Shown in pieces: positions 1 to 63,746 of a DNA stretch of 64,000 nucleotides. The number at the start of each line of letters is the position of its first letter. The stretch's first letter is position 1. The notes under the pieces were generated by a model, which saw only the letters and a program-made list of their open reading frames with translations, was not told the origin of the DNA and did no database searches. Position numbers and translations under genes: made by a program. The DNA comes from Bryobacterales bacterium (GTDB lineage: Bacteria > Acidobacteriota > Terriglobia > Bryobacterales > Bryobacteraceae): positions 1 through 64,000 of the forward strand of contig JADLDI010000057.1 of NCBI GenBank assembly GCA_020846745.1. Direction: 5' to 3'.

Positions 1-670
1 CTTGGAGGGCGGTCTGGTAGCCGATTTTGGCGTACTGGCTGATGAGGAAGTTGACGGAGATATCGAGGTTGGCAGCGTCGTCGCGGATTTCGGCGGCTAC
101 GGACGGGGGGAAGTGGGTGAGGATGTCTTCGGAGGGCGCGGCACTCGCTTGCGGTCGCGGTTCCGTTTCCGGAGAGGTGCGAGGTGGGGGAGTTCGTTTC
201 GCAAAGCGTTGAATTTTAAGGGCGTCGGCGAGGGGGAGCGACGGACGGGGGGCGTCCGGATGGGCTTCTATTAGCTGGCAGATGCGGTTCGTTTGGGAAT
301 CTTTGAGTTGTTTGTAGGCGCGGTTGAACGAACCTTCGAAGCGGATGTAGTAGCGCGAGTAGAGTTCGGCCTCTTTTGGGGTGGGGGGGTGGGTGATGGG
401 GTCGCGGCCATCGGAGCGGTCGTAGAGTTCGTTTTGGAAATCGAGCGCACGGAGCATGTTACAGCGGGCGGTGACGAGTTTGTCGAAGAAGATTTCTTCC
501 AAGGGGCCATCGGGGTGGCACTGGGCGTGGAGTTCGTTTCGCAAACTGTTGAAAACAGGACGGAGGTCGGCGGGGATGGACTCGGCCGACAGTCCATGCT
601 TGCGCGCATTTTGGGAGGATTTGGCTTTGCCTTCTTCGGTGCGGGGTCCTGTGCTGAGGTTTGCAGACAT
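1..670 (-). CDS. Uncharacterised 'STGPRTEEGKAKSSQNARKHGL' protein, cassette copy A (truncated by left window edge)
   Basis: ATG at 670 on the minus strand (MSANLSTGPRTEEGKAKSSQNARKHGL...), open to the window edge; near-identical to the 55228-55962 protein. Confidence 0.8.
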   Translation of the reverse strand, partial: MSANLSTGPRTEEGKAKSSQNARKHGLSAESIPADLRPVFNSLRNELHAQCHPDGPLEEIFFDKLVTARCNMLRALDFQNELYDRSDGRDPITHPPTPKEAELYSRYYIRFEGSFNRAYKQLKDSQTNRICQLIEAHPDAPRPSLPLADALKIQRFAKRTPPPRTSPETEPRPQASAAPSEDILTHFPPSVAAEIRDDAANLDISVNFLISQYAKIGYQTALQ

Positions 671-775
671 CTGAGTAGTACTCCTTGTGGGGAAATCTTT
701 GAATCGGCCGCCGATTAACGCGGATTTAACGCCGATGGGTCGGGGGCGCGGCGGCCAGCGACCGGAGGTAGTGCG

Positions 776-807
776 AAAAAAAAGACCGCGCGATGGCGGT
801 CCTTTTT
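776..807. terminator. Intrinsic-terminator-like hairpin, cassette copy A
   Basis: aaaaaaaagaccgcgcgatggcggtccttttt: GC stem flanked by A and T runs. Confidence 0.7.
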
Positions 808-849
808 GGTTTGTTTGGTGGGTGGACACACGTCCACGACCACGGGTCA

Positions 850-878
850 AGTGTACCAACGATCCAAGCGGAATACAA
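850..878 (-). promoter_or_regulatory. Candidate promoter, cassette copy A (minus strand TTGTAT-N17-TACACT)
   Basis: Plus strand AGTGTA at 850-855 and ATACAA at 873-878; same 17 nt spacing in copies B and C. Confidence 0.5.
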
Positions 879-1143
879 GAGGGATTGCGTGAAAAAGTTG
901 TTCGCAGGAGTATTTCGCAGAAATGGGGAAGAGATTAATTTTAGATTAACAGAGTTGATAGTCCTTGATGAAGGAGGGTAGTGTTCAGAAGCAGGTGGCA
1001 TGAATGGTGAAGTTACCAGTAGAAGACGCGTCACGGTCTGGATTTGAGAGGACTTCATCAGGTGCTCGGCCCGGTTCAAATAGGGTTGCGTTCCAGATTG
1101 ACTCCGGGGACGGTGCGGAGCGGATTATCGATTTGGTGTCGCG

Positions 1144-6529: not shown

Positions 6530-6705
6530 AATTTCGGAATCGGCCGCGGATTAACGCCGATGGGCCGGGGCGCGACGGCTTCCGACCGGAGGTAGTGCGA
6601 AAAAAAAAGGACCGCGCGATGGCGGTCCTTTTTGATTTGTTTGGTGGGTGGACACACATCCACCCACCGGTCAAGTGTACCAGCAATGCCAGTGGAATAC
6701 AAGAA
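6530..6705 (-). repeat. Solo copy B of the leader cassette (promoter, two hairpins), no downstream gene
   Basis: Aligns with copies A and C from 'gccgatt..' to 'ggaatacaaga'; hairpin gaccgcgcgatggcggtc at ~6608-6629. Confidence 0.8.
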
Positions 6706-38650: not shown

Positions 38651-39369
38651 CCTATCTTCACTTCATCCCAACGTTTTGGTTCCTCGTCGCACTCGCCGGG
38701 ATTCCTTTTCCCCGTCGCCGATTGACCTTCGCCTACGTCGCTCTGGCGGGAATATTCCTATGTATGTTCCCCCCGCTCGCGGCCCTGGGGTTACGAGCCA
38801 TCAATTCCGGCTATGCTCCGATTCCCGGCGCGGAGGTTCCCGCGGACTCCATTGTTGTGCTGTCCGGGCACGTCGCCGGTCCCGACGAACAGTACCCTAC
38901 CGCCACGCCACACACCGACACCGCCGAGCGGCTTCGTCATGCCGCGACTCTGTACCGGACCTGGCGCAAACTGCCGATTATCGTCACCGGCGGCACTCGC
39001 GATCTGAGCGGCGTCGCGTTCGCGGTGACCATGAAGCGCGAATTGGTGCGCATGGGCGTTCCCGAAGAGGATATCTGGACCGAAGAGCAATCGACCAACA
39101 CGCACGAAAACGCACTCTTTTCAGCAAAGCTGCTAGCCGCGAAAGGGCTGAAGCGGCCCGTGGTCGTCACCAGTTGCTACCACATGCTGCGAACCGAGAT
39201 GTGTTTCAAGAAGCAGGGCTTCGAGGTCTATCCCGCGCCCGTGGGAATCCCGCCTTTCGAACTCCGCTTGGCTTCGTTCATCCCAAACGACGGGGCACTA
39301 CTCCACAATGAACACATCGCGCACGAGCTGGTAGGGATCGCGTTTTACAAGGCGCGGGGGCAGTTGTAG
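38608..39369 (+). CDS. YdcF/DUF218-like protein
   Basis: 'ADSIVVLSGHVAG', 'LPIIVTGGTRDLSG', 'EQSTNTHENALFSAKLL', 'VTSCYHMLRTEMCFKKQGFEVYP'. Confidence 0.88.
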   Translation: MAPPDVAALAAFHLTYLHFIPTFWFLVALAGIPFPRRRLTFAYVALAGIFLCMFPPLAALGLRAINSGYAPIPGAEVPADSIVVLSGHVAGPDEQYPTATPHTDTAERLRHAATLYRTWRKLPIIVTGGTRDLSGVAFAVTMKRELVRMGVPEEDIWTEEQSTNTHENALFSAKLLAAKGLKRPVVVTSCYHMLRTEMCFKKQGFEVYPAPVGIPPFELRLASFIPNDGALLHNEHIAHELVGIAFYKARGQL

Positions 39370-40072: not shown

Positions 40073-40495
40073 CCGCTCATGCACCGCATTTATCCCCGCA
40101 TCGTCACGATCTCTCTCCTCATGGGAATATTCCTCTGTATGTTCCCCCCGCTTGCGGCCCTGGGGTTAAGGGCCATCAACTCCGGCTATGCTCCGATTCC
40201 CGGCGCGGAGGTTCCGGCCGATGCCATTGTTGTGCTGTCCGGACACGTCGCCGGCCCCGACGAACAGCATCCTACCGCCACGCCACACACCGACACCGCC
40301 GAGCGGCTTCGTCATGCCGCGATTCTGTACCGGACCTGGCGCAAACTGCCGATTGTCCTAACCGGCGGTACTCGCGATCTGAGCGGCGTCGCGTTCACGG
40401 TGACCATGAAGCGCGAATTGGATCGCGTTTTACAAGGCGTAGATTTCAAGTTCCGGTCCGGCGCTTCTGCATCATTTCGCGCAGGAATGCGTTAA
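40073..40495 (+). pseudogene. Chimeric duplicate: K+ channel 5' end fused to internally deleted YdcF gene
   Basis: 40073-40121 matches 41073-41121; 40123-40421 matches 38748-39046 without gaps; 40422-40439 matches 39337-39354, implying a 290 bp frameshifting deletion. Confidence 0.85.
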
Positions 40496-45230: not shown

Positions 45231-45268
45231 GGTGAAAACCATTGTAGGTCCGCTGCCTGCCCCATCGT

Positions 45269-45347
45269 GCATCCCCCAATGCTGCGTCCCCCCAATGCTG
45301 CATCCCCCCATGCTGCATCCCCCAATGCTGCGTCCCCCAATGCTGCA
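45269..45347. repeat. Short tandem repeat, five units of ~15-16 bp (GCRTCCCCC(C)AATGCT)
   Basis: gcatcccccaatgct gcgtccccccaatgct gcatccccccatgct gcatcccccaatgct gcgtcccccaatgct read directly. Confidence 0.9.
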
Positions 45348-45399
45348 TCGACGCCAGGATGTTCGCAGTTGCCTCCGAGTTCTCGGCGTGCTTAGACCG

Positions 45400-51555: not shown

Positions 51556-53193
51556 ATGAGGATCGCTCCTCTAACCGCTGTACTCTTCTCATCCATCGCC
51601 ACCCTCACCGCGCAACCCAACATCACCGCGTGGCAGCCCAACTACTCGTTCACCTTGCCCGGCACCCCGCACTACGCCGCAGCACAAGGATCGCTGATCG
51701 TCATCTACGGCGATAATCTCGGACCGGCCCAACTGCTCTCCCAAGGCTTCCACCCCGCACTCGACCGGAATCTCGGAGGTGTCTCCGTCCGTATCACCGT
51801 CGGCACAACCACCACGCAGGCCATTCCGTATTACGTGTCCGCTAGGCAGATCGCAGCGATCGTACCGTCCACCACCCCACTCGGTGATGGGACCCTGACC
51901 GTCACCTATAACAGCGCCACCAGCGCCACCTTCCCCATTCGCATCGTGCAGAGCGCCGTCGGCCTGCTCACCAGAAACGGCTACGGCGTCGGTCCGGCCG
52001 CGGTCTATGATTCCAGCGGCCGCCTGATTACCCGCACCAATGCCGCCAACCCAGGCGATACGGTAGTGTTCTGGGGCACAGGTGTCGGCCCTGATTTAAC
52101 CACTGATGAGACGCGTCTGATCTCGGCTGTCCGCAATCTCGAGAACCTCCCGTTTGAGTTCCACATCGGCGGCAAACTTGCGACCGCCGCCTACCGCGGC
52201 CGGTCTACCTATCCCGGCGTCGACCAGATTAACGTAATCGTTCCGCAAGGAGTTTCGGGTTGCGCCGTGAGTGCTTATGCCAAAACCGGCGCGTTCGTCA
52301 GCAACATTACAACAGTTCCCATCGCTCTAACCGGCAACATCTGTTCCGACAACAAGGGCTTCTCCGCCGAACAAATATCACGCTTCGAGACCCAGACCGG
52401 CTGGATCCTTTCGGCCTCTGCCTCTGTCGGCAGAACCGCCAACTGGCGGGGAGGCCCATGGTTCACCGTCCCACCCGGGACCATTCACGATGAAGCCAGG
52501 CTGGAATTTCAAATAACGATAGATCAAGACCGGCAGGCTCCCGTTGTGCTTCAACCTCCGTCCATTGGGAGTTGCGTAGTGGGTGCGGGAGATGACCGTC
52601 CCTCCTCGGCGGGAAGGGTTGTGTTCCACCCCGTTGATGGCGTTACCCTGAAACTCCCCGATGGAACGTCGCGGCCGATGACTGGACCCAACCCGTACAC
52701 CTATTCCGAATTTGGACCCGCTGGGTCGGAACCACTCATCCCAAACGTCGGAGCACTCTTCCAAATCGACACCGTTGGCGGCACCAGTAGCGCTCCCTTC
52801 ACCACCACCCTCACCGCCCTCCCCACCCTCCAGTGGACCAACAAGTCCCAACTCGCCGAAATCGACCGTACCCGCCCACTCGACCTCACCTGGATCGGCG
52901 CCCCGCAAACCTACGCCGTCATCTCGGGTTATGCCGCCAATGGTCCGGACCCATTCCTCTGGAGTACCTTCTATTGCACCGCACCCGGCGATACCGGCCG
53001 CTTCACCGTCCCCGCCGACATCCTTTCCCACATGCTCAAAAGCCTCACCGCAAACGATGCCGGCGATCCCGTCCAGAGCGGACAACTGACCCTTACGCTC
53101 TACAGCATTCCCAACTTCCAAACCGTCCAGGGCCTCGATTTCGTCGAATCCTCCAGCTACTCCAGCGAAATCCTACGCGTTAACTTCAAGTAG
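51556..53193 (+). CDS. Secreted protein with TIGR03437-like domain (paralogue 1)
   Basis: 'QGSLIVIYGDNLGPAQLLSQGF..GGVSVRITVGTTTTQAIPYYVSARQIAAIVPSTTPLG', 'FWGTGVGP'. Confidence 0.82.
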   Translation: MRIAPLTAVLFSSIATLTAQPNITAWQPNYSFTLPGTPHYAAAQGSLIVIYGDNLGPAQLLSQGFHPALDRNLGGVSVRITVGTTTTQAIPYYVSARQIAAIVPSTTPLGDGTLTVTYNSATSATFPIRIVQSAVGLLTRNGYGVGPAAVYDSSGRLITRTNAANPGDTVVFWGTGVGPDLTTDETRLISAVRNLENLPFEFHIGGKLATAAYRGRSTYPGVDQINVIVPQGVSGCAVSAYAKTGAFVSNITTVPIALTGNICSDNKGFSAEQISRFETQTGWILSASASVGRTANWRGGPWFTVPPGTIHDEARLEFQITIDQDRQAPVVLQPPSIGSCVVGAGDDRPSSAGRVVFHPVDGVTLKLPDGTSRPMTGPNPYTYSEFGPAGSEPLIPNVGALFQIDTVGGTSSAPFTTTLTALPTLQWTNKSQLAEIDRTRPLDLTWIGAPQTYAVISGYAANGPDPFLWSTFYCTAPGDTGRFTVPADILSHMLKSLTANDAGDPVQSGQLTLTLYSIPNFQTVQGLDFVESSSYSSEILRVNFK

Positions 53194-53282: not shown

Positions 53283-54914
53283 ATGAAGATATTTTACGGA
53301 GGCTTCGCCGGACTGTTATGTCTGGCCGCTTCGGCATTGGCCCAACCTAAGGTTGACGCCTGGCAAATGAACTACAGCTTTACCCTCCCCAAAACTCCGC
53401 ATTACGCGGCGGCGCAGGGTTCAATCATCGTTATTTACGGGTCCGGCATGGGACCCGCAACCTTGCTGTCGCAAGGCTTCAACCCGGCGCTCGACAAGAA
53501 CCTCGGTGGTGTTTCCATCAAGGTGACCGTTGCCGCCACCACCACGGAAGCGATTCCTTATTACGTTTCCGCAACCCAGATTGCAGCTATCCTCCCATCC
53601 GCTACCCCGGTCGGCAACGGAACGCTCACCGTCACCTACAACGGCCAGACCAGCGCTTCTATTCCCATCCGTGTCGTACAAAGCAATCTCGGTATCCTCA
53701 CGCTAAACGGCGCAGGCACCGGCACTGCCGCGGTCTACGACCTGAACTATCAGTACGTCACACCCACCAATGCCGCCAACCCGGGCCAGTCCATCATCTT
53801 CTGGGGAACCGGCCTCGGCCCCGACCCCAACGACGAGACACGCCTGATCACGGGCGCCAAGAGCCTCGACACCATCCCCTTCGAGTTTTACATCGGCGGC
53901 AAGCGGGCCAACGTCACCTACCGCGGCCGCTCCCCTTACCCCGGACTCGACCAGATCAACGTAGTCGTTCCCGACGGTGTCTCCGGTTGTGCGGTCGCCG
54001 CCTACTCGAAATCAACCACCTGGGTCTCCAACATGACGACCATCCCCGTTGCCGCCAGTGGACGTATCTGCTCCGACCCGAGCGGTTTTTCGAGCGGCGA
54101 CATCTCTCGCCTCCAGAACCTCTCGCAGATCAACATCGGCAGCCTCTCATTGGGTAAAGCGACTGCGGCCCAAGGGCCCATCTCGCTCACCAGCGACAAC
54201 GCCACCGCCATGTTCGCACGCTACACCCCCATCGACTTCACCAATAACGCCAGCGGCGGTCAGGCTTCTATCGGCAGCTGTATGGTCAGCACCTACACCG
54301 GTTCGAGCGGCGCTCCGCCCACTTCACCAGGCATCAAGTTGCTCGATGCCGGCGCCGTAACCTTGCGCCTGCCTGACAGCAGCACCCGCACCTTAGCTCG
54401 CCAGCAGGGCATCTATTCCTATTCCGGAGTAAGCCTGGGCGGGAACCCGCTCTTCATCCCTGCTTCCGGCGGCGACTTCACATATAACATTGGCGGCGGC
54501 GCTGATGTCGGAGCCTTCAGCGCCGGACTCTCCGCCTTCCCCGCCATCAATTGGACCAACAAGTCGAGCATCTCCAACATCAACCGCTCCAGTTCGCTCG
54601 ACGTGACCTGGACGCCCGGCCCCGCCAGCGCGTACATGGTTATCGCCGGCGTTTCCATCATCACGGGTCCTCCATCGCTCGCCACCTCGTTCGTCTGCAC
54701 CGCCGATGCCGCGGCCGGCCGCTTCACCATCCCCGCCGACGTCCTCTCGAAAATGGTGCAGAGCGAGGTGATCAGTGGCGGCGGCATAACCATTGCCACC
54801 GGTCAGTTATCGCTCATGATGTACAGCAACCCCAAGTTCACCACCGGCCCCGGTCTGGACATCGTGTCCACCACCTACTTCAACTCCGACAGCGCGGCGG
54901 TGAACTACCAGTAA
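53283..54914 (+). CDS. Secreted protein with TIGR03437-like domain (paralogue 2)
   Basis: 'QGSIIVIYGSGMGPATLLSQGFNPALDKNLGGVSIKVTVAATTTEAIPYYVSATQIAAILPSATPVG'; tandem paralogue of 51556-53193. Confidence 0.82.
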   Translation: MKIFYGGFAGLLCLAASALAQPKVDAWQMNYSFTLPKTPHYAAAQGSIIVIYGSGMGPATLLSQGFNPALDKNLGGVSIKVTVAATTTEAIPYYVSATQIAAILPSATPVGNGTLTVTYNGQTSASIPIRVVQSNLGILTLNGAGTGTAAVYDLNYQYVTPTNAANPGQSIIFWGTGLGPDPNDETRLITGAKSLDTIPFEFYIGGKRANVTYRGRSPYPGLDQINVVVPDGVSGCAVAAYSKSTTWVSNMTTIPVAASGRICSDPSGFSSGDISRLQNLSQINIGSLSLGKATAAQGPISLTSDNATAMFARYTPIDFTNNASGGQASIGSCMVSTYTGSSGAPPTSPGIKLLDAGAVTLRLPDSSTRTLARQQGIYSYSGVSLGGNPLFIPASGGDFTYNIGGGADVGAFSAGLSAFPAINWTNKSSISNINRSSSLDVTWTPGPASAYMVIAGVSIITGPPSLATSFVCTADAAAGRFTIPADVLSKMVQSEVISGGGITIATGQLSLMMYSNPKFTTGPGLDIVSTTYFNSDSAAVNYQ

Positions 54915-54937
54915 ATCCGCTTAACCCCAAAACGCGA

Positions 54938-54965
54938 AAAAGGACCGCCCCCGTGCGGTCCTTTT
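54938..54965 (+). terminator. Rho-independent-type terminator
   Basis: AAAAGGACCGC-ccccgt-GCGGTCCTTTT, 11 bp stem, 24 nt after the stop codon of 53283-54914. Confidence 0.85.
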
Positions 54966-55017
54966 ATTCTTTTCGAACGAGGCCCCGGAGCGGCGGGAGT
55001 TCCTCACGAAATGCCTC

Positions 55018-55046
55018 TTGTATTCCGCTGGCATTGCTGGTACACT
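55018..55046 (+). promoter_or_regulatory. Candidate promoter, cassette copy C (TTGTAT-N17-TACACT)
   Basis: TTGTAT at 55018-55023, TACACT at 55041-55046; same elements and spacing in copies A and B. Confidence 0.5.
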
Positions 55047-55053
55047 TGACCCG

Positions 55054-55120
55054 TGGTCGTGGACGTGTGTCCACCCACCAAACAAATCCAAAAAGGACCG
55101 CCATCGCGCGGTCTTTTTTT
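55054..55120 (+). ncRNA. Candidate leader RNA: hairpin 1 (55054-55080) followed by terminator-like hairpin 2 (55091-55120)
   Basis: TGGT-C-GTGGAC-gtgt-GTCCAC-CC-ACCA; then AAAAGGACCGC-catcgc-GCGGTCTTTTTTTTT; both upstream of the 55228 ATG and present in copies A and B. Confidence 0.5.
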
Positions 55121-55227
55121 TTCGCACTACCTCCGGTCGGAAGCCGTCGCGCCCCCGACCCCCTCGGCGTTCATCCGCGTTAATCGGCGGCCGATTCAAA
55201 AATTTCCCCAGAAGGAGTATTACTCAG

Positions 55228-55962
55228 ATGTCTGCAAACCTCAGCACAGGCCCTCGCACCGAAGAAGGCAAAGCCAAATCCTCCCAAAATGCCAGAAAAC
55301 ATGGTTTGACCGCCGAATCCATCCCAGCCGATCTCCGTCCTGTTTTCAACCATTTGCGAAACGAACTCCACTCCCAGTGCCGCCCCGATGGCCCCTTGGA
55401 AGAAATCTTCTTCGACAAACTCGTCACCGCCCGCTGGAACATGCTCCGTGCGCTCGATTTTCAAAACGAACTCTACGACCGCTCCGATGGCCGTGACCCC
55501 ATCACCCACCCCACCACCCAAAAAGAGGCCGAACTCTACTCGCGCTACTACATCCGGTTCGAAGGTTCGTTCAACCGCGCCTACAAACAACTCAAAGATT
55601 CCCAAACGAACCGCATCTGCCAGCTAATAGAAACCAACCCGGACGCCCCCCGTCCGTCGCTCCCCCTAGCCGACGCCCTTAAAATTCAACGCTTTGCGAA
55701 ACGAACTCCCCCCTCCGTAACGGAGCCGCGACCGTCAGGGAGCGCCGCGCCATCCGACCCGCGACCGTCCGCGAGCGCCGCGCCATCCGAAGACATCCTC
55801 ACCCACTTCCCCCCGTCCGTAGCCGCCGAAATCCGCGACGACGCTGCCAACCTCGACATCTCCGTCAACTTCCTCATCAGCCAGTACGCCAAAATCGGCT
55901 ACCAGACCGCCCTGCAAGAATCCGTGCGGAACGAACCCAATTACGATTGCGTTAAACGTTAA
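55228..55962 (+). CDS. Uncharacterised 'STGPRTEEGKAKSSQNARKHGL' protein, cassette copy C
   Basis: 244 aa 'MSANLSTGPRTEEGKAKSSQNARKHGLTAESIPADLRPVFNHLRNELHSQCRPDG'; AAGGAG upstream of ATG. Confidence 0.85.
   Translation: MSANLSTGPRTEEGKAKSSQNARKHGLTAESIPADLRPVFNHLRNELHSQCRPDGPLEEIFFDKLVTARWNMLRALDFQNELYDRSDGRDPITHPTTQKEAELYSRYYIRFEGSFNRAYKQLKDSQTNRICQLIETNPDAPRPSLPLADALKIQRFAKRTPPSVTEPRPSGSAAPSDPRPSASAAPSEDILTHFPPSVAAEIRDDAANLDISVNFLISQYAKIGYQTALQESVRNEPNYDCVKR
55726..55791. repeat. 33 bp tandem duplication inside copy C gene (two units)
   Basis: ccgcgaccgtcagggagcgccgcgccatccgac / ccgcgaccgtccgcgagcgccgcgccatccgaa; copy A has a single equivalent unit. Confidence 0.85.
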
Positions 55963-62672: not shown

Positions 62673-63746
62673 ATGCCGTCCGCGAATAAGGTTGCCTGGG
62701 CTCAGCTTCGTGTCGGCATCGTCGCCGCGGTCGCCATGATCCTGCTGGCCGCGCTGGTGTTGCTCATCACCGGCCGGACCAGTTTCTTCGCCCCCAAAGC
62801 CAACCTCTATACCTTTTTGAAAGACTCGGCGGCGCTCGCCAGCGGCGCGAACGTCCGCATCAACGGCATCCTCGCCGGCCGCGTCGCTTCCGTGGAACTC
62901 ACCGGCTCGACGCAACCGGATCGCGTCGTCAAGGTAACGCTCGAAGTGGAACGGCGGCTGTTGCCGCAAATACCGTCCAACTCCATCGCCGCCATGGCGG
63001 CTGAGAATCTGCTTGGATCGAAGTACATCAACATCCAAAAGGGCGATAGCCCCGTGCCGGTACAACCAGGGGCTGAACTGAAGGCGAAAGACACGTCGGA
63101 GTTCGACGAGGTGCTGCGCTCTTCCTACAACCTGTTGGGCGGCCTGCGCGCCACGCTCGAACGCATCGACCGTATCGTCGCCGTCGTCGAAAGCGGCGAA
63201 GGGTCTATCGGCAAGCTCATCTTCGACACCCAGCTTTACAACAACCTCAATCGCACCGCCGGCGAAGCCAATCGCCTCATGGCCCAGATCAACAGCGGCC
63301 AAGGCACCATCGGCAAGTTGATGTACGACGATGCCATCGTTACCGATGTCCGCAACTCCATCGCCCGGTTCAACGTCCTGCTCGACGATCTGCAAGCGGG
63401 CAAAGGCACCGCCGGGAAGCTCTTGAAAGACGAGAAACTGTACGCCGAACTGCGCAGCACAATGGCCGAATACCGCAAAATTGCCGCGGACCTCAATTCC
63501 GGCAAAGGCACCGCCGGCAAGCTCTTGAAAGACGAAGACCTGCACAAGCAGATCCTCGCCACCATGAACCGGGTCGACACGCTGTTCGACAAGATCAACT
63601 CCGGCCAGGGAACCCTCGGTCAACTGGTCGTCAACCCCCAGATGTACGAGTCGCTCAACGGGGCCTCGCGCGAAATCCACGAGTTCCTCAAAGCGTTCCG
63701 GTCGAATCCGAAGAAATATCTCTCTATCAAGCTGAACCTGTTCTAG
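62673..63746 (+). CDS. mlaD: MCE/MlaD-family substrate-binding protein
   Basis: N-term TM; MCE region 'LKDSAALASGANVRINGILAGRVASVEL'; repeated 'SGKGTAGKLLKDE' motifs. Confidence 0.9.
   Translation: MPSANKVAWAQLRVGIVAAVAMILLAALVLLITGRTSFFAPKANLYTFLKDSAALASGANVRINGILAGRVASVELTGSTQPDRVVKVTLEVERRLLPQIPSNSIAAMAAENLLGSKYINIQKGDSPVPVQPGAELKAKDTSEFDEVLRSSYNLLGGLRATLERIDRIVAVVESGEGSIGKLIFDTQLYNNLNRTAGEANRLMAQINSGQGTIGKLMYDDAIVTDVRNSIARFNVLLDDLQAGKGTAGKLLKDEKLYAELRSTMAEYRKIAADLNSGKGTAGKLLKDEDLHKQILATMNRVDTLFDKINSGQGTLGQLVVNPQMYESLNGASREIHEFLKAFRSNPKKYLSIKLNLF

Follow-up and report, generated by a model that had tools for sequence, protein, structure and literature searches.

We identified a gene family of Bryobacteraceae and their relatives that occurs in high copy number, is probably mobile and, we propose with moderate confidence, limits its own expression by promoter-proximal transcription termination. 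Its copy number, its dispersal, the layout of its unit, the conservation of its RNA structures and the selection on its coding sequence are established at the level of sequence. A first-pass annotation of the window (the whole 64,000-nucleotide stretch of DNA that was analysed) had reported three copies, A, B and C, of a dispersed cassette in which a promoter and two hairpins, the second resembling an intrinsic terminator, precede an uncharacterised gene. These three copies are part of a genome-wide family whose layout is conserved in other genera. When the sequence was read again, the coordinates and elements given for copy C were correct, including the order of promoter, terminator, ribosome-binding site and gene, and the promoter, its 17 nt spacing and both hairpins were present in copies A and B as described. 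The features of the window are as follows.

1 to 670, minus strand: gene of copy A, truncated at the contig end (93% protein identity)
671 to 892, minus strand: leader of copy A, with promoter, hairpin 1, terminator and ribosome-binding site
6545 to 6704, minus strand: copy B, with promoter, hairpin 1 and terminator and without a gene
54937 to 54968, plus strand: terminator-like hairpin after the upstream gene, its stem that of the family terminator
55018 to 55046, plus strand: promoter-like site of copy C, TTGTAT-N17-TACACT, read from the sequence, with an extended -10 (TGG.TACACT); TTGTAT at 55018-55023, 17 nt spacer, TACACT at 55041-55046
55053 to 55080, plus strand: hairpin 1, beginning at the predicted transcription start (minimum free energy fold; core GTGGAC-GTGT-GTCCAC)
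55090 to 55122, plus strand: hairpin 2, an intrinsic-terminator hairpin with stem arms GACCGC (55096-55101) and GCGGTC (55108-55113) and a nine-T run (55114-55122)
55212 to 55217, plus strand: ribosome-binding site AAGGAG, read from the sequence
55228 to 55962, plus strand: family gene, 244 amino acids, predicted all-helical, ATG at 55228 and TAA at 55960-55962
55354 to 55369, plus strand: first copy of the motif TTGCGAAACGAACTCC, within the family gene
55694 to 55709, plus strand: second copy of TTGCGAAACGAACTCC, within the family gene in a different reading frame

Copy B is a decayed or solo copy of the leader. Its perfect hairpin 1 stem had been taken as a sign of selection on structure; that selection holds, as described below, but copy B is weak evidence for it because its gene has been lost. 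The stem AAGGACCGC..GCGGTCCTT occurred at 15 sites in the genome, of which 14 were family leaders; the fifteenth, at 54940-54963 of the window, lay between the upstream gene and copy C and was the only non-leader site in the genome. The terminator at 54937-54968 is probably an older remnant of the family, and possibly one that has been co-opted behind the upstream gene. Two tandem paralogous secreted-type genes (51556-53193 and 53283-54914) adjoin copy C. Further repeats of the window were a 300 nt direct repeat at 38748-39047 and 40123-40422 (93% identical), tandem 102-nt repeats at 63195-63545, probably in a coding region, and a short tandem repeat of 15-nt units resembling CCCCATGCTGCATCC at 45260-45353.

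A search of the same genome yielded 30 close copies of the leader, and a covariance model of the kind that the first-pass annotation had proposed building raised this to 44 matches. Thirty-seven of the 44 lay directly before a family gene, 2 were cut by contig ends and 5 were solo or decayed; in this genome the leader is part of the gene-family unit and not a regulon-wide switch. A hairpin followed by a T run was detected in 20 of 28 non-redundant leaders here and in all 14 of the sister species, compared with 15% of shuffled sequences. Outside the two closest genomes 15 of 96 leaders passed the terminator test, which is about the shuffled rate, with several convincing by eye, and the leader layout is not universal across the family. 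Among 138 non-redundant family leaders, a -10-like TG.TA...T was present in 49 (9.5 expected) and AAGGAG in 32 (5.8 expected). Transcription had been expected to start upstream of the hairpins, and the predicted start agrees: of 21 divergent leaders taken from this genome, the sister species and five other genera, 15 had their first stem at the predicted +1, beginning 6-8 nt past the -10-like box, compared with a mean of 2.3 and a maximum of 5 in 200 shuffled sets, although the boxes were chosen by a regular expression that also required a downstream hairpin and T run, which may somewhat favour good spacing. The folding-energy z-score of these 21 leaders had a median of -4.5. A second upstream pattern, TTGACA-N5-TGnTA, was noted in leaders of genomes G000, G001 and G029, and family genes followed 10 of its 12 sites in this genome. 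Its spacing is unfit for sigma-70, and having rejected it as a promoter we treat it as a putative family-specific site.

The layout of promoter, stem, terminator, ribosome-binding site and gene recurred in six genera with unrelated stems. Within this genome the terminator stems took the forms GGACCGC/GCGGTCC, GCCGGC/GCCGGC, GGACGGC/GCCGTCC and AAGCCCGCC/GGCGGGCTT, with pairing kept in each, and stems had been swapped between subfamilies with pairing retained. Terminator stems of the sister species carried GGACCGG or GGACCAG with an inner stem, and at one locus (L116) CTCTCC/GGAGAG replaced CTCGACC/GGTCGAG; those of G124 were GCCGGC or GGCCGG. Hairpin 1 of one member of the window's subfamily (L048) read GTGGAT-GTGT-ATCCAC in place of GTGGAC-GTGT-GTCCAC, a two-sided change of C-G to T-A. 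The covariation check that had been suggested thus found pair-preserving changes, and its column counts lent modest support: 7 cells had changed on both sides against 2.4 in shuffles, a level reached by 0 of 500, while the level for pairs changed on both sides was reached by 36 of 500. Whole leaders were replaced as well. The gene at L002 is 94% identical to that of the window and carries the leader type of another subfamily, with a different terminator, so leaders are exchanged while the layout stays; two further leaders of this genome (L009 and L138) had been replaced. Judged from sequence, the leader is real and selected for structure, and the earlier claim to that effect is upheld by the compensatory changes and by the recurrence of the layout in several genera whose stems are unrelated.

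These features suggest a mechanism by which each intact unit would bring its own promoter, and the transcript would start to fold at its 5' end, forming either a hairpin followed by an intrinsic terminator or the terminator straight away. The ribosome-binding site would follow downstream of the terminator, and then the gene, whose product is small and helical and probably binds nucleic acids. The majority of transcripts from the unit promoter would end at the T run, and protein would be made from the read-through fraction only. Premature termination would in this way keep the expression of a proliferating gene low at any landing site, and the same terminator would also block transcription entering from outside. 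Both termination in the cell and the resulting self-limitation are predicted from the arrangement of the leader.

On a rival reading the leader is a conditional attenuator or riboswitch, in which the choice between termination and read-through would be made by a ligand, a protein or an RNA. The order of promoter, structured RNA, terminator and ribosome-binding site is indeed that of an attenuator and the structure is conserved, and this part of the first-pass annotation, which had read the region as an attenuator or riboregulated leader, has stood; a riboswitch with its own ligand or trigger has not. Constrained folding with the 3' arm barred revealed no strong upstream partner competing for the 5' arm of the terminator in eight leaders, the stretch from the predicted +1 to the T run contained no ATG for a leader peptide in the window, and no Rfam family matched the leader at its gathering score. 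The leader also serves no other gene set in its own genome. The sub-threshold Rfam matches include a weak likeness to amino-acid operon leaders, among them Trp_leader at 23.6 bits against a cut-off of 41, which may reflect only the combination of hairpin and terminator. Since no competing antiterminator, ATG leader peptide or Rfam match was found, a self-contained switch is unlikely, and we consider the conditional reading as a whole unlikely too; a trans-acting antiterminator protein, perhaps the family's own product, may nevertheless act on the leader.

Mobile genes often need shielding from outside transcription. The hairpins could accordingly act as an insulator that stops flanking host transcription, with the working promoter lying between the terminator and the ribosome-binding site, and the position of copy C in the window, directly behind a host gene on the same strand, would suit such a role. 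Against this, the -10 box sits at a fixed 6-8 nt from the first stem across genera, and the T run and ATG of G124 and G001 are only about 20-30 nt apart, too short for a second promoter. We regard this explanation as quite unlikely.

We judge it very unlikely that the terminated leader acts as a small RNA in its own right, partnering the protein as a guide, scaffold or antisense regulator. A structured, terminated RNA of ~70 nt adjoining a gene for a helical protein would fit this idea, as would the conserved GUGU segment of hairpin 1 in this genome, and small RNAs are known to regulate some mobile elements, such as ISPpu9 (PMC8450116). The predicted leader RNA of G124 is, however, ~30 nt long and consists of the terminator hairpin alone, the stems are wholly different between genera, and no targets were found.

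The gene family itself was far more extensive than the three copies in the window. In this genome its protein gave 145 tblastn matches, comprising dozens of close copies and several diverged subfamilies, with many copies truncated or internally deleted, and the description of a dispersed cassette was borne out. Many of the matches lay at contig ends, and the assembly breaks within copies. A profile search of 121 genomes from the same bacterial family located the gene in 100, and copy numbers ranged from 0 to at least 26 per genome. Among the carriers was G124, a near-closed genome of three contigs only, so the copy number is not an assembly artefact. The sister species contained at least 35 matches at ~40% identity, which formed multi-copy families of their own, and relatives beyond the bacterial family were present in other Acidobacteria, in Planctomycetota and Armatimonadetes and in one Rubrobacteraceae genome. 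Collections of plasmid and phage records gave no match, and a literature search returned no paper describing the family. Between copies dN/dS was 0.18-0.45, which indicates purifying selection and therefore that a coding function has been kept.

Copies shared nothing beyond the unit, and their flanks were unrelated. In a synteny and empty-site comparison, orthologues of the neighbouring pilin gene in nine genomes were flanked by unrelated neighbours, a result with no bearing on insertion. Inverted repeats of the form GGGTGCGCGAC..AGAAATG ended part of the window's subfamily (L062, L063, L064 and L067, with 3' ends such as L061 and L066); when up to 2 mismatches were allowed there were 26 such sites, against none in a reversed control. 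Other copies of that subfamily ended elsewhere, copy C lacked these ends, and no terminal inverted repeats were seen in the G124 copies. Searches of Pfam, NCBIfam, PHROGs, PDB and predicted folds detected no recognisable transposase or recombinase in the unit. The GGGTGCGCGAC..AGAAATG ends often adjoined a GC-rich dispersed repeat (..TTGCGCTTCGGGCGG..TGCGCCGGCCGGGTCGCTGACGCTCCC), and at one locus cut by a contig end (L068, G000 C157:123654) the GGGTGCGCGAC..AGAAATG inverted repeat lay beside an apparent IS21-type end (repeated TTGGCCCCACC) and a tyrosine-recombinase-like ORF. Because a shared unit stands in unrelated flanks but inverted repeats mark only a subset of copies, mobility is something we infer, and we describe the gene unit as probably mobile. 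That the family consists of ordinary, immobile host paralogues, spread by duplication and gene conversion and equipped with a terminator-containing 5' UTR, would agree with the lack of a transposase, the purifying selection and the presence of the family in most genomes of the bacterial family, but is scarcely credible given that only the unit is shared between unrelated flanks, that related species differ from 0 to at least 26 copies and that so many copies are truncated or internally deleted.

The product of the window gene had been described as having no recognisable function, and we came to the same result: it had no match in Pfam, NCBIfam, PHROGs or PADLOC, and PDB sequence and fold searches gave nothing usable. 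A SEC-C motif was present in some relatives. The AlphaFold model of the family protein was confident and all-helical (mean pLDDT 87, pTM 0.63); fold matches to an IS621 coiled coil had E values above 1, were not meaningful and were set aside. The N-terminal module STGPRTxEGK..NA.KHGL was common to the family protein and to proteins on viral contigs. Profile comparison (hhalign) between the family and the phage proteins aligned 46 N-terminal columns with a probability of 98.6 and an E value of 1.2e-15, and nothing beyond. At the phage loci with the STGPRTPEGK..KHG form of the module (L277, L278, L281, L282, L285, L286 and L287), the next genes matched the large terminase (phrog_2) in 6 of 7 cases tested, and STGPRTPEGK..KHG constitutes an unnamed module of phage proteins in the small-terminase position. 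A weak resemblance to small terminases was seen in one of them (Pfam E 0.0064, below the cut-off; PHROGs E 0.0073), and the predicted structure of the phage relative was too poor for use (mean pLDDT 54). The family protein thus resembles the phage proteins, whose genes lie directly before or near the terminase large subunit in six viral contigs, in the 46-column module, and differs from them elsewhere in its sequence and in having no packaging genes as neighbours in the window. We rejected the family protein as a phage small terminase, both by homology, which fails for the whole protein since only the N-terminal 46 columns align, and by gene context, the large terminase not being adjacent in the window neighbourhood. 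Sharing a module with proteins in the terminase position therefore points to nucleic-acid binding, not to terminase function, and the family protein is probably a small, helical, nucleic-acid-binding protein.

A 16-bp motif was linked to the family. TTGCGAAACGAANYCC was counted 159 times in this genome and 17 times in the sister species, whereas two others had 1 and 0 copies and controls had none. The two copies in the window gene lie in different reading frames, and other family genes have the motif in the third frame. The core CGAAACGAA of this motif was enriched in family genes and their 3' ends: 16 of the 21 non-redundant genes of this genome had it, as did all 5 from the sister species and 2 of 4 from G124, where 0.15 or less was expected per group. 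We put forward the CGAAACGAA-core motif as a candidate binding site for the family protein. TTGCGAAACGAANYCC also formed regular tandem arrays elsewhere, at three or more loci (L346, L347 and L348), with units of 116 bp at C15, about 122 bp at C48 and about 112 bp at C45, and the sister species had a similar array (L354).

A bolder reading, to which we give only a small probability, is that the family is a self-propagating element of a new kind, in which the small helical protein, with its DNA-binding-like module shared with phage terminase-position proteins, would recognise CGAAACGAA and spread the unit without known transposase chemistry, either by itself or together with the terminated leader RNA. 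If the family protein does move the unit, this would be a new mobility mechanism; if it does not, other machinery amplified the family. The family, which most sampled genomes of this widespread lineage of soil bacteria carry, in up to dozens of copies each, has neither a domain model nor a recognised transposition enzyme. Such families break assemblies, and many contigs here begin or stop within a copy. The leader offers a clear and testable example of selection for a terminator close behind a gene's own promoter, maintained from genus to genus as stem sequences are replaced, a layout that would amount to expression control through built-in premature termination.

Several known systems resemble the family in part. 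IS10, IS200 and ISPpu9 (the last of the IS110/IS492 family) limit their own expression by RNA means, mainly at the level of translation or through antisense small RNAs (PMC8450116). They share with the family a high-copy, single-gene unit whose expression is restrained by 5' structure or RNA, and the family of ISPpu9 likewise has no clear inverted repeats (PMC8450116); here, in contrast, an intrinsic terminator lies between promoter and ribosome-binding site, and the gene is not a known transposase. Because no transposase is present, the family falls outside the known insertion-sequence families. Transcription attenuators such as Trp_leader (RF00513) have the same succession of promoter, hairpin, terminator and gene, whereas the family leader lacks a competing antiterminator, an ATG leader peptide and a regulated pathway gene, and scores below the Rfam threshold. 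REP elements, bacterial MITEs and Rickettsia palindromic elements are alike in their many dispersed copies, and the likeness extends to the partial terminal inverted repeats of one subfamily and to a motif lying inside genes in several frames; unlike them, the family unit carries a gene under purifying selection together with its own conserved leader.
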